A stretch of 64,000 nucleotides of DNA, taken from positions 496,001 to 560,000 of the forward strand of contig CASERN010000011.1 in assembly GCA_949290355.1 (NCBI GenBank), read 5' to 3'. This DNA is from an uncultured bacterium. Its GTDB lineage: Bacteria; Cyanobacteriota; Vampirovibrionia; Gastranaerophilales; Gastranaerophilaceae. The translations under genes were made by a program, and so were the position numbers. The notes under the pieces were generated by a model. The model made no database searches, was not told the origin of the DNA, and saw only the letters and a list, made by a program, of their open reading frames with translations. Positions 2,240 to 56,741 of the stretch are shown piece by piece (the first letter of the stretch is position 1; every line of letters starts with the position of its first letter).

Positions 2240-2328
2240 ATGGAAAGATTTGACGGATTGCGTATTTTCGGGGGGGGGGCAGTTTAAAGCTTACACCGCA
2301 AGGGTTTCGAGGTTTTTTTAAAGATTTC
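2240..2328 (+). other. Leader ORF with a ten-G tract, out of frame with the pilin
   Basis: An AAGGAG sequence (2225-2230) is followed by ATG at 2240. After ten codons the frame meets ten G residues (2270-2279) and stops at TAA 2285-2287, giving a 15-residue peptide MERFDGLRIFGGGAV. One more G, or two fewer, would place the ATG in the pilin frame, which has no stop between the tract and 2329. The joined leader would read through GGGGSLKLTPQGFRGFFKD to the prepilin cleavage site. This looks like the true but currently out-of-phase 5' end of the pilin gene. Confidence 0.75.
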
Positions 2329-2359
2329 GTGTCGGGTCAAGCGGCACGCTTGGGGTTTA
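2266..2359 (+). repeat. Pilin-leader repeat, copy 1
   Basis: About 90 bases from TTTCG(10)C through GCGGCACGCTTGGG to TTTAC match 55977-56070 with only four differences (at 2313, 2316, 2327 and 2354). Read in the joined pilin frame, three of the four are synonymous third-position changes. Beyond the block the two genes keep the same protein sequence for some 20 residues but use many different codons. The leader block is therefore conserved at DNA level more strongly than the coding region that follows it. Confidence 0.85.
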
Positions 2360-3027
2360 CGTTAGCAGAGGTATTAATTACTCTAGGGATTATCGGAGTT
2401 GTCGCAGCATTAACTATACCGACTTTGGTAGCTAATTACCAAAAAAAAGTTTGGGTAACACAGTTAAAAAAAGATGTGAGCTTGTTGCAAAACAGTTATA
2501 GAAAAGTAATGGCAGATGAAGGTGTTGATTCTATTTTTGATACTTCTGTAGCTTATAAAATTCAAAGCTCTGATAATAATGCGTCTTTTGATTTTGGCTA
2601 TTATCCGGATAAATACGCAGCATATTTTGGTTATACCTTATCTCCTGCGAGTTCTTTAAAAAATAGTCTTCTTAATCAGTTACAGGATGATATCTTGATA
2701 TTGCCTAACGGATCTTGCTTCTACCTTCAGAAAGCAGGTGGTGGTTCTGAAGAATATTTGCATTTGGCTACTATAATTGATGTAAATTGCGATAAAGGAC
2801 CAAATGTTGCAGGTAGAGATACATTCGCTGTGCTTTTAGATGGGGATGCAAAACTTAATTTTTACGGTTATGGTTCTTTTGAAGATCCTGATGGTTGGAG
2901 ACAGGCATGCACATCTGAAAATATTGATAATTATGGGAAAGGGCAACTAGATTTGCCTACTACTCAAATGTTAGCTACTATGTGTGCCGGTCTAATAATA
3001 AGTGATGGATGGGAAATGAATTATTAA
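2329..3027 (+). CDS. Type IV pilin / type II secretion pseudopilin-like protein, locus 1
   Basis: Exported fibre or pseudopilus subunit with the class III prepilin signal LGFTLAEVLITLGIIGVV. Cleavage should fall between Gly and Phe, with Glu at mature position 5 and a hydrophobic N-terminal helix. The globular part contains cysteines and ends ...SDGWEMNY. The GTG at 2329 gives a leader of ordinary length (VSGQAARLG) but has no well-placed Shine-Dalgarno sequence. The frame is open upstream to the G tract, so the more likely start is the ATG at 2240, reached only if the tract changes length or slips. The adhesin-like surface role is inference; the pilin signal is plain. Confidence 0.85.
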   Translation: MSGQAARLGFTLAEVLITLGIIGVVAALTIPTLVANYQKKVWVTQLKKDVSLLQNSYRKVMADEGVDSIFDTSVAYKIQSSDNNASFDFGYYPDKYAAYFGYTLSPASSLKNSLLNQLQDDILILPNGSCFYLQKAGGGSEEYLHLATIIDVNCDKGPNVAGRDTFAVLLDGDAKLNFYGYGSFEDPDGWRQACTSENIDNYGKGQLDLPTTQMLATMCAGLIISDGWEMNY

Positions 3028-13944: not shown

Positions 13945-14940
13945 TTATAATAATAAAGCTATAAATGCAGCTGCTACCATTGCTGGCCCAAATGGCATAT
14001 AAGTTCTGTTCTCAGGATGTTCTCTCAATCCTTTAAATATTAATATACAGGATACAATTCCTAATACAGCTAAAATAATTGCTCCTATTAAGAATAGTGC
14101 AACTTTTTCAACACTTATAATCCCTATACGTTGTAATGAATAAAATGCTGCGGCAAAAATTACAAAAACAAGAAACGATGCTAAAGTTTTCCACTCTTTG
14201 TTTGTGATAAGCCCTTTTATAAATATTGGTAAGAATAATATAACTTGAATTACCACAGCTAAAGCTAGAACAAATAATAATGTTCTCCATCCAAATATTG
14301 CACCAAGACCTGCAGCAATAAAAGTGTCTCCTTCTCCAAAAGCTCTAGTGCCAGCAATAAGATATCCAGCTCTTGCGCAAATCTCAAGAATTATTGCACC
14401 TGCCAATATTCCTAATAAAGACATTGAAATTGGATTGTTTAATAAAATGAATTTTGTGAATTCAAATGGAGTACCTGCTTGATGAATTTGTGTAAATGCA
14501 ATTGCTGTAGTTATAATTGCATAAATTAGACCCACTCCCATTAATATATATGTGTGTAAGTCATATACGACTTTTTCTTTAATATCTGTACCTGCAATAA
14601 CTATCATTAATGAAGCAATTATCCAAGCAAATAAAGTATCTATACTTACTCCAAATTTCATGAAAAACAGAGTAAATGCAATACCTGTAAAAAGTTCTGT
14701 GATAGGATATTGAATGCTGATTGGTTCTTTGCAGAATGCGCATTTCCCTCTTAAAAATATAAAAGAAATAAGAGGAATATTATGCCACCATTTTAATGGT
14801 GTTTGACATTTTGGACATTTGGAACCGGGAAATACTATTGATTCTTCTGATAAAGTTCTGAGTATAACAACATTTAAAAAGCTGCCTATACATAGACCTG
14901 TAACAAATACTAATAATAAAATAGTAATTAACGCTCCCAT
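13945..14940 (-). CDS. pilD: Type IV prepilin leader peptidase / N-methyltransferase
   Basis: Polytopic inner-membrane aspartic protease that removes prepilin leaders and methylates the new N-terminus. The cytosolic zinc loop has C42xxC45 and C67xxC70. The active-site aspartates are D119 (IAGTDIKEKVVYD) and D205 in FGEGDTF, the GxGD motif. At 331 aa with about eight membrane segments it is a full-length bifunctional enzyme. It follows the sigma-factor gene by 12 bases on the same strand. The three pilin-like genes in this window are its obvious substrates. Confidence 0.95.
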   Translation of the reverse strand: MGALITILLLVFVTGLCIGSFLNVVILRTLSEESIVFPGSKCPKCQTPLKWWHNIPLISFIFLRGKCAFCKEPISIQYPITELFTGIAFTLFFMKFGVSIDTLFAWIIASLMIVIAGTDIKEKVVYDLHTYILMGVGLIYAIITTAIAFTQIHQAGTPFEFTKFILLNNPISMSLLGILAGAIILEICARAGYLIAGTRAFGEGDTFIAAGLGAIFGWRTLLFVLALAVVIQVILFLPIFIKGLITNKEWKTLASFLVFVIFAAAFYSLQRIGIISVEKVALFLIGAIILAVLGIVSCILIFKGLREHPENRTYMPFGPAMVAAAFIALLL

Positions 14941-17881: not shown

Positions 17882-18036
17882 TTATTTACATTTTGTCTTG
17901 CCATTAAATTCAAGATCGCTGCAATGTAAATAATCCATATTGCCATTCATTATTACCCAAGCGGTGCATCGAGAATAATTTTCGCCATTAAGACAGTAAT
18001 TTCTAAATTCGCTGTTAGAGTTTCCTGTTGGTATAA
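17882..18036 (-). pseudogene. Out-of-frame C-terminus of pilin locus 3
   Basis: Directly downstream of FLLSFIDTK in the pilin frame, the neighbouring frame reads IIPTGNSNSEF, then NYCLNGENYSRC, TAWVIMNGNMDYLHC and SDLEFNGKTKC, ending at TAA 17884-17882. It has a cysteine-rich, pilin-like C-terminus and extends to within three bases of the pyrG stop. Adding one A at the A-run near 18037-18040 (minus strand) restores a single frame of about 229 codons. The break could be a real mutation, a sequencing error or another slippage point. Confidence 0.75.
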
Positions 18037-18570
18037 TTTTGTGTCTATAAAGCTTAAAAGAAAAGTATTTTTACTCATTTTCCCCCCGACAGTTTCGCGT
18101 TTTTTCCCTTTTGTAGTAATGTAAAAATCCCCGCAATAAGATGTTTCTGTTGTACAAGTTGATGGTGATAACCATACTCCAGTTATTCTTGTTCCATCAG
18201 GCATTACAAAACCTGTAGTTTCTTCTTCATTTTGTTTCCCGATTTTTTCATATTTAACAGATTTGACATATTTAGACATGATGGTTAAAAATTTGTCATA
18301 ATTTGCAAGAGATTCATCTGTATGTTCTAATTTTCCATCATCATTTTCATAATTTTCTGAATCAGTTAATCCCCAGTTATCAAGTGTTCCGTTTTCTTCA
18401 ATAGCCTGCAGATAGGCTTGTGAAAAAGCACTATAAAACTTTTTTACACTTACAACAGTCGCCTGTTCTTGTTGTTTTTGAATTAATGTCGGTAAAGTAA
18501 GAGCTGCAACAACTCCTATAATTCCCAGTGTGATTAATACCTCAGCTAAAGTAAAAGCTCTTTTTTTCAT
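17953..18570 (-). CDS. Type IV pilin-like protein, locus 3 (frameshifted near its end)
   Basis: Prepilin-like protein. The short leader MKKRA is followed by FTLAEVLITLGIIGVV, with Ala instead of Gly before the cleavage site; the mature part is globular. The frame ends ...MAKIILDAPLG, but the last ~30 residues look unlike a pilin. A better C-terminus continues in the next frame to 17882, so one base appears to be missing near 18037-18040. The ATG at 18570 has no clear Shine-Dalgarno sequence. A better-initiated ATG at 18704, behind a ten-C tract, would join this frame with one added base. The gene may be inactive, switched off or mis-sequenced. Confidence 0.8.
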   Translation of the reverse strand: MKKRAFTLAEVLITLGIIGVVAALTLPTLIQKQQEQATVVSVKKFYSAFSQAYLQAIEENGTLDNWGLTDSENYENDDGKLEHTDESLANYDKFLTIMSKYVKSVKYEKIGKQNEEETTGFVMPDGTRITGVWLSPSTCTTETSYCGDFYITTKGKKRETVGGKMSKNTFLLSFIDTKLYQQETLTANLEITVLMAKIILDAPLG

Positions 18571-18704
18571 ATTTATAAATCCGTGATTCCTATCATCAAT
18601 ATTATGACATATGTTACCTAAAAAATCAATACAATAATCTAAAATACCCTCACTATCTATCTTTTCGGGGGGGGGGCGACCTCAAAAGCTTTTGTTCTTC
18701 TCAT
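18571..18704 (-). other. Leader ORF with a ten-C tract upstream of pilin locus 3
   Basis: On the minus strand AAGGAG precedes ATG at 18704. After MRRTKAFEV the frame meets ten C residues (18676-18667) and stops after 15 codons. With one more C (or two fewer) the ATG would read without a stop through 32 further codons into the pilin ATG at 18570. Unlike loci 1 and 2, the coding strand carries C, not G, and the leader sequence is unrelated, although TTTCG(10)C is shared in reverse orientation. A TTGACA lies upstream on the minus strand (about 18765), supporting a promoter before this ATG. Confidence 0.65.
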
Positions 18705-55887: not shown

Positions 55888-55916
55888 TTGAAAAATTTGC
55901 CTGTATCAATTATACT
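55888..55916 (+). promoter_or_regulatory. Promoter upstream of pilin locus 2
   Basis: TTGAAA (55888-55893), a 17-base spacer, TATACT (55911-55916). It would start transcription about 28 bases before the ATG at 55951, paralleling locus 1. Confidence 0.65.
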
Positions 55917-55950
55917 AAATATGTAAAATTATTTAAAAAAGGAGCTATCT

Positions 55951-56039
55951 ATGAAGAAGATTAAGTTTGTACGGAGTTTCGGGGGGGGGGCAGTTTAAAG
56001 CTTACACCGCAAGGGTTTCGAGGATTCTTTAAAGATTCC
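55951..56039 (+). other. Leader ORF with a ten-G tract, out of frame with the pilin (locus 2)
   Basis: AAAGGAG precedes ATG at 55951 by seven bases. Ten codons lead to ten G residues (55981-55990), after which the frame stops at TAA, giving the 15-residue peptide MKKIKFVRSFGGGAV. Eleven (or eight) G residues would join the ATG to the pilin frame, which is open through the whole interval. Tract length, distance from the ATG, stop position and phase are identical to locus 1. Confidence 0.78.
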
Positions 56040-56070
56040 GTGTCGGGTCAAGCGGCACGCTTGGGATTTA
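55977..56070 (+). repeat. Pilin-leader repeat, copy 2
   Basis: Near-identical to 2266-2359 (four mismatches outside an exact ten-G tract). In the joined frame it encodes GGGGSLKLTPQGFRGFFKD followed by SVSGQAARLG up to the prepilin cleavage site. It is richer in G+C than the gene body. Confidence 0.85.
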
Positions 56071-56741
56071 CTCTAGCAGAGGTATTAATAACTTTAGGAA
56101 TAATTGGAGTAGTTGCAGCATTAACGATACCATCAGTAATTAGTAAACATAAGAAAATTGAAACAGTTACTAAATTAAAAACAGCAATGACAACTATAAA
56201 TTCTGCATTTAAACTTGCTGTTGTTGATTATGGAGAAATGCAAAATTGGGATTATATTAATGATTTTGATGATGCTGCTTCAAGAAAAAAATTTATTGAT
56301 AAATATTTAATTCCTTATATAAAAGGAGCTTCTCCATCTCCTGAGGATGCTTATGAGGCTTCTGGCTTAGGTTATCCAAAGTCTACAGATAAATATTATC
56401 CTCATCAACCTAGTGGAAGTATAGTTGGAATGAGTTCCAGAAATTATTACCCTATAGGCTTGTTAAATGGTATTTTTTATTATTCAGGTTTTGATGGGAG
56501 TACTAATATGGTTTTTAATGTTGATTTAAACGGAATAAACAAACCTAATCTTTACGGTTATGATTTGTTTGCGTTTGAATTAGTGCCAGAACAAAATACA
56601 ATTAAAATGTATACATTTCGATATCCTTATAAAACAAATGGTGTATACACATATTGCAACTATGACGGAGCATCAGGTTGTGGATTGGTTATAGAAAAAA
56701 GTGGTTGGCAAATACCTGATGATTATCCTATAAAAATTTAA
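56040..56741 (+). CDS. Type IV pilin / type II secretion pseudopilin-like protein, locus 2
   Basis: Exported prepilin-like protein of 233 aa as read from GTG 56040. The signal is LGFTLAEVLITLGIIGVV and the globular domain ends with a cysteine pair (YCNYDGASGCGLV) and KSGWQIPDDYPIKI. Its first 35 residues match locus 1 closely while the globular domain differs, as in a family of variable fibre tips. The GTG lacks a placed Shine-Dalgarno sequence; the likely native start is ATG 55951 across the G tract. The stop shares TTAA with the convergent lpxK gene. Confidence 0.85.
   Translation: MSGQAARLGFTLAEVLITLGIIGVVAALTIPSVISKHKKIETVTKLKTAMTTINSAFKLAVVDYGEMQNWDYINDFDDAASRKKFIDKYLIPYIKGASPSPEDAYEASGLGYPKSTDKYYPHQPSGSIVGMSSRNYYPIGLLNGIFYYSGFDGSTNMVFNVDLNGINKPNLYGYDLFAFELVPEQNTIKMYTFRYPYKTNGVYTYCNYDGASGCGLVIEKSGWQIPDDYPIKI

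Follow-up and report, generated by a model that had tools for sequence, protein, structure and literature searches.

Type IV prepilin genes resting one base out of frame on strand-locked G tracts: a probable phase-variable repertoire in a Gastranaerophilales genome

The locus at positions 55951 to 56741 raises the question of why a type IV prepilin gene with its own Shine-Dalgarno sequence and start codon should be set one base out of frame by a run of ten G, and whether such an offset reflects decay, sequencing error, programmed slippage or a heritable switch. We addressed this in the 64,000-nucleotide stretch of DNA that contains the locus (the window), in the genome from which it comes and in relatives across the order.

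The locus and its neighbours in the window

The features of the locus (locus 2 of the window) and of the related loci, where n is the length of the tract, are as follows.

55888..55916, plus strand: candidate sigma-70-like promoter of the switch ORF, read from the sequence (TTGAAA, 17 nt, TATACT)
55938..55944, plus strand: Shine-Dalgarno sequence AAAGGAG
55951..55980, plus strand: ATG and first ten codons, MKKIKFVRSF
55981..55990, plus strand: G(10), the putative slippage tract; only n=11 (mod 3) brings the pilin into frame
55977..56003, plus strand: local form of the DNA motif, TTTC-G10-CAGTTTAAAGCTT (genus-wide, TTTC-G10-C[AG]ATT..GCTT)
55996..55998, plus strand: TAA closing the n=10 frame after 15 codons, an early stop kept genus-wide
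55992..56741, plus strand: pilin frame, a leader and then a type IV prepilin with FTLAEVL (TIGR02532, PF07963, DUF6613)
2240..3027, plus strand: locus 1, the same switch, with ATG at 2240 and G10 at 2270-2279, needing +1
17953..18704, minus strand: locus 3, a switch pilin whose tract (18667-18676) is read as C10 (MRRTKAFEVAPPP..), needing +1
13945..14940, minus strand: ORF for a prepilin peptidase (PilD-like; PF06750, E=5e-35), the sole one found in the genome

As assembled (n=10), locus 2 encodes only MKKIKFVRSFGGGAV before the TAA at 55996-55998, while the pilin frame is open from 55992 to its stop at 56739-56741 and is reached only with +1 (or -2). The Shine-Dalgarno sequence, start, ten codons, G(10), stop and +1 need that a sequence-only reading had reported for this locus were all found, as were the matching metrics of locus 1 (n=10 stop at 2285-2287; pilin stop at 3025-3027). 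The same reading had called the two loci independent; they are in fact paralogues, with 84 of 90 bases identical 3' of the tract and 16 of 30 in the 30 bases before it. At locus 3 the ATG lies at 18704 and the native frame stops after 15 codons; the minus-strand gene reads the plus-strand G run as C10, giving Pro-Pro-Pro. A search of the window for G(9+) gave six overlapping matches, which are the three G10 runs of these loci, compared with none in 100 shuffles, and a chance origin of the three runs is excluded.

The products belong to the type IV prepilins. The cleavage/methylation motif [G/A]F(T)xxxE is present together with a hydrophobic helix, and at locus 2 cleavage is predicted before the F at 56067. 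In profile scans TIGR02532 was above cut-off at loci 2 and 3 and DUF6613 at locus 2, where PF07963 was above cut-off in the genome scan and slightly under it in the single-protein scan. The prepilin peptidase that this class requires is encoded within the window (PF06750). No homology to Opa was found in the profile scans, which matched no family other than type IV prepilins.

Tract-bearing pilins across the genome and the genus

The genome (1.85 Mb, 14 contigs) holds 37 runs of at least nine G, and 36 of these lie in prepilin leaders, some 23-30 nt after the ATG and 5' of the prepilin motif, a few of the 36 being cut by or close to contig ends; the 37th is a C14 unrelated to pilins. With two more pilins that have a G8/C8 tract, both in frame, the tract-bearing pilins come to about 38, spread over the contigs, a total that may differ because contigs C2, C4, C9, C11 and C13 of this genome (G000) end in or near pilin leaders. 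Seven of the 38 are in frame in the assembly, namely L037, L038, L039, L057 (n=11), L058 (n=10) and the two n=8 loci. The copies are full length with their own starts, as checked against the silent truncated donor copies of pilE/pilS, and the tract stands 5' of the cleavage motif in many dispersed paralogues, an arrangement like that of the Opa family. At 18 of 52 genes that read the run as G (G-read), an internal SD-ATG is kept just before the short leader, compared with 0 of 34 genes that read it as C (C-read), and these 18 may, judging by their sequence, be translated in any phase and escape the switch.

A PF07963 scan of the genome found 54 prepilin-like genes, so that some 16 have no tract, and most of the tractless pilins looked at have a short leader that starts from an ATG of its own. 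In L120, L121 and a class with MKKIFGFTLAEVL (e.g. L055) a further contrast was seen: tractless pilins are served by a TGTTATAAT promoter-like box with SD and ATG, and tract-bearing genes translate that stretch as (K)xICYNSDVxxHH, which looks as though the tract module had been set 5' of an older promoter. Locus L117:4447 is a decayed copy, with a broken C run (CACCCCTCCCCC) and an in-frame stop directly before the pilin.

When the pilin domain alone was used as a query of genome contigs no relatives were retrieved, and relatives were therefore gathered through the DNA motif. The contigs that carry both the motif and a pilin leader are Candidatus Gastranaerophilales MAGs. Across 192 genomes sampled from the order, the strict motif occurs mainly in the genus of the window; outside it, one genome of another genus has nine matches and two genomes have one match each. 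One record, L134 (FR900415.1), is titled Fusobacterium sp. CAG:439, probably wrongly, for 3.7 kb of it match a Gastranaerophilales locus at about 84% identity.

Among the 109 distinct tract-pilins of the genus sample, 101 share an in-frame length of 11 (mod 3) (p about 1e-38 against an expectation of 1/3, the loci being not fully independent owing to paralogy). The distance from start to tract varies from 15 to 72 nt (most 21 to 35), yet the same phase is shared, which means that it was retained while the spacing changed. As assembled, 88 of the 109 are off at n=10, seven at n=9 and one at n=11, and 13 are in frame, with in-frame alleles at n=11, n=8 and a few other lengths. In G-read genes the stop of the n=10 frame lies a median of 2 codons behind the tract, compared with 12 in the remaining frame; C-read genes show little contrast (5 vs 6).

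The length distribution is equally narrow. Over 1.15 Mb of sequence surrounding tracts and pilins in five congeners, with the leading strand assigned per locus from the GC-skew grouping of contigs, leading-strand G runs number 820 G4, 110 G5, 13 G6, no G7, 2 G8, 9 G9, 90 G10 and 7 G11, with none longer, and no leading-strand C run of at least seven was found. About 83% of the runs in the genus are exactly ten. Chance or composition alone as the cause of run length was ruled out, there being no G7 runs against 90 G10. Glycosyltransferase genes (genomes G020 and G022) and an ATPase-like gene (G022) have G10/C10 tracts and are in frame at that length, so the length mode is not set by frame. Glycosyltransferase-like loci with tracts in a similar TTTC..C flank are L094:9964, L099:9906, L096:9963, L103:9978 and L110:5025, several of them in frame at n=10.

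The genes behind the tracts are conserved. We found dN/dS of 0.11-0.16 in orthologue pairs such as L082/L134, L083/L189, L078/L221, L098/L170 (both off, n=10) and L092/L244, and this holds for orthologues off in one or both assemblies; values are higher in more divergent pairs and recent paralogues. The view that the shared offset is maintained and is not random decay, already taken in the sequence-only reading, is borne out by the common phase of 101 of the 109 and by this purifying selection on pilins that are off. L092 (n=11) and L244 (n=10), which align over about 1 kb at 86%, differ by 2 nucleotides in the 47 codons up to the cleavage site, and the putative orthologues L084 (n=10) and L206 (n=11) show no change in 19 codons over the same interval. 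In these comparisons the tract is a part that changes fast within genes that are conserved. As in contingency loci, the length of a homopolymer in the coding region decides the frame, and that length differs between close relatives at matched loci. In G022, the leaders of L097, L098, L101, L102 and L106 run for 55-120 codons from the tract to the cleavage site. Repeat peptides (ILNLFQDLL, LKQVQDD, KDAKRHRCKAS) are dispersed along them, and their in-frame phase is free of stops.

In two sister genera the offset takes another form. The leaders of genus g15 (G040) are built in the same way, with tract lengths of mostly 13 and 12; the in-frame length is 12 in 24 of 33 cases, and -1 is mostly needed; in genus g23 (G060) n is mostly 12 and -1 is needed in 22 of 30. 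The flanks in both differ from those of the genus of the window, the pilins are G-read only and the strand bias is looser. Across these genomes, resting one base out of frame is a trait of the family, and the sign of the offset and the length of the tract are traits of the genus. In G040 (loci L297, L298, L306, L307 and L314), lagging-strand tracts are shorter (11-12) than leading-strand tracts (12-13), a contrast confounded with a second leader subfamily.

Strand, flanks and the competing explanations

The runs are always G on the leading replication strand, whether the gene reads them as G or as C, and the presence of both G-read and C-read genes rules out dependence on one gene direction. 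Tract orientation agrees contig by contig with the sign of the third-position GC skew, in genes of both directions, and reverses along a contig where the skew does (G000 C11 near 775-820 kb; G022 C3), the small end pieces C4 and C1 of G000 being mixed or uninformative. The consensus of 63 G-read contexts is AATTTC-Gn-CAATTTAAGGCTT and that of 49 C-read contexts, written on the same G strand, is CTTTTC-Gn-CAATTCTAAACTC. Flanks of the C-read class scored with a position weight matrix from the G-read class reach a mean of 5.7 bits, compared with -19 +/- 9 in shuffles, and the flank spacing is equal in the two classes. G-read and C-read genes make opposite coding demands, so coding cannot explain the shared flanks; a common origin or a function at the DNA level could. 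The strand-locked motif TTTC-G10-C[A/G]ATT is new. Base composition on the leading strand is already biased (110 G5 vs 62 C5) and may account for part of the strand bias; it does not explain the isolated peak at ten.

The reading that we consider likely is that the genome carries about 38 type IV prepilin genes that vary in phase independently of one another, are out of frame by one base at the resting length and are switched by replication slippage. A homopolymer in the leader (G10 in the genus), some ten codons past the start, would act as the switch, and prepilin peptidase should remove the leader, so that tract changes would leave the mature pilin unaltered. With n=10 the reading frame misses the pilin by one base and ends a few codons on; n=11 (or 8) puts the pilin in frame. 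Replication slippage would change the tract length reversibly; slips in copying probably switch on a few pili per cell at random, each cell then expressing a small random subset of the pilins. The resting length would be set at the DNA level, with the phase selected to be off there, and since a leading-strand G run lies in the template of the lagging strand, single-stranded DNA could favour slippage. The -1 need of the sister genera, the in-frame alleles, the length differences between orthologues and the lock to the replication strand suggest that the length changes in DNA. Loss of mismatch repair was ruled out as a cause, mutS1 being present here and in all 60 genomes of the family that were searched. 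Three points count against the phase-variable reading, namely that 18 of 52 G-read genes keep the internal SD-ATG and might be translated in any phase, that the peak at ten is sharper than in Campylobacter jejuni (83% vs 44%) and that simple slippage does not require a strand-locked motif. A stronger proposal, that the motif is a dedicated replication-directed length-control site at which a leading-strand factor holds the tract at exactly ten, with dozens of pilins resting one base off and released singly, seems to us unlikely.

Programmed slippage, in which RNA polymerase or the ribosome slips on G10/C10 and yields a fixed in-frame fraction of pilin from an unchanged G10 gene, would suit the slippery nature of homopolymers, the very constant length of ten and +1 need within the genus and the 0-frame stop at a median of 2 codons behind the tract in G-read genes, which resembles known frameshift cassettes. 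We nevertheless regard it as improbable. A programmed frameshift has one direction, and the shift needed here is +1 in the genus and mostly -1 in two others. That the sister genera mostly need -1, at lengths of 12-13, is the main evidence against two readings, a programmed +1 shift and a systematic undercall. Alleles in frame at n=8, 10 and 11 are present, G and C runs are used alike, the run tracks the replication strand and not transcription, and the same tract leaves glycosyltransferase genes in frame at n=10. The fixed fraction of product by programmed +1 slippage that the sequence-only reading had favoured thus gives way to the -1 need of sister genera, the in-frame alleles, the differing orthologue lengths and the strand lock.

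It is also conceivable, at rather long odds, that TTTC-G10-C[AG]ATT..GCTT is a DNA-level element read by replication- or recombination-linked machinery that sets its length or shuffles cassettes, the reading frame being secondary. The common flanks and spacing in G-read and C-read genes (5.7 bits vs -19), the confinement of all runs to the leading strand, the sharp peak at ten and the position of the tract module 5' of a relic promoter still in use in tractless pilins are consistent with this. Against it, composition already favours leading-strand G runs (110 G5 to 62 C5), other genera have different flanks and a looser strand bias, no machinery for the motif has been identified, and the leader frame, like the mature pilins, shows the conservation of coding sequence.

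An assembly or sequencing artefact, with true tracts of G11 and all genes intact, is very improbable. Homopolymers of such length are hard to call, a consensus hides mixtures, and 'G's end' artefacts are described for Illumina (PMC9187656). However, the same G10 occurs in records from different assembly programs, alleles of n=8, 9 and 11 are called in the same assemblies, and in the sister genera the departure runs the other way, with one base too many, which an undercall would not give. Random decay into frameshifted pseudogenes, to which the fact that most copies are out of frame in the assembly and the one interrupted, stop-bearing copy (L117) might point, can be practically dismissed in view of a dN/dS of 0.11-0.16, of long leaders whose +1 frame is free of stops and of the phase shared by 101 of 109.

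Significance and comparison with known systems

Under the phase-variable reading, one genome would hold an unusually large phase-variable set of a single protein family, and dozens of pilins parked off by one base would amount to a combinatorial surface in a cyanobacteria-related gut lineage. The uniform offset and the strand lock make two ideas testable, the tuning of a slippage equilibrium by strand and flank and the selection of a default phase. For annotation there is a warning, since switch genes look like frameshifted pseudogenes or lose their first codons. A published Melainabacteria study that covers pilins deals with gene presence only, and among the open-access papers searched we found none that links Gastranaerophilales with phase variation.

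In Neisseria, the opa genes carry CTCTT pentamers and encode outer-membrane adhesins, and pilC carries a G-tract and encodes a tip adhesin, not a pilin. The opa family is the nearest system in logic, with many dispersed paralogues, a repeat in a cleaved leader and independent on/off switching, but its repeat is the CTCTT pentamer and its products are outer-membrane adhesins, whereas here a G run lies in the leaders of type IV prepilins. The opa genes that vary in phase independently number about 11 (PMC3745409).

Campylobacter jejuni has 29 polyG/polyC contingency loci per genome, with major peaks at G8 (257), G9 (214), G10 (431), G11 (77) and G12 (9) of 988 (PMC4965091). The number and length of the G tracts and the combinatorial on/off states are similar, but the C. 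jejuni tracts lie in diverse surface-modification genes with a broad spread of lengths, in contrast to the single family and the peak at ten described here. We know of no common gene family, phase or flank among the C. jejuni tracts. At Neisseria pilE/pilS, G4-dependent gene conversion replaces pilin sequence by recombination. A G-rich element adjoins pilin genes there as it does here, but here the pilins are full length, at separate loci and with a single G run each.

The nearest demonstrated system is the pilus switch of Bifidobacterium breve, where PMC9187656 describes a G-tract switch of sortase-dependent pili at bbr_0113 and bbr_1889 and shows replication slippage. The G10 locus of that pilus was 93% G10 and 6.5% G9 in culture, and the in-frame tract form was enriched in mice, according to the same text (PMC9187656). 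As in that gut commensal, where a G10/G11 tract in the first gene of the pilus cluster splits it into two ORFs and productive slippage restores the frame, the tract here separates a start from its pilin; B. breve has, by that account, two sortase-pilus operons per genome, compared with about 38 single type IV prepilin genes here, and no strand-locked motif is seen in the accessible text of PMC9187656, whereas the tracts here are strand-locked. A switch set of about 38 genes would greatly widen a mode of switching known from pathogens such as Neisseria.
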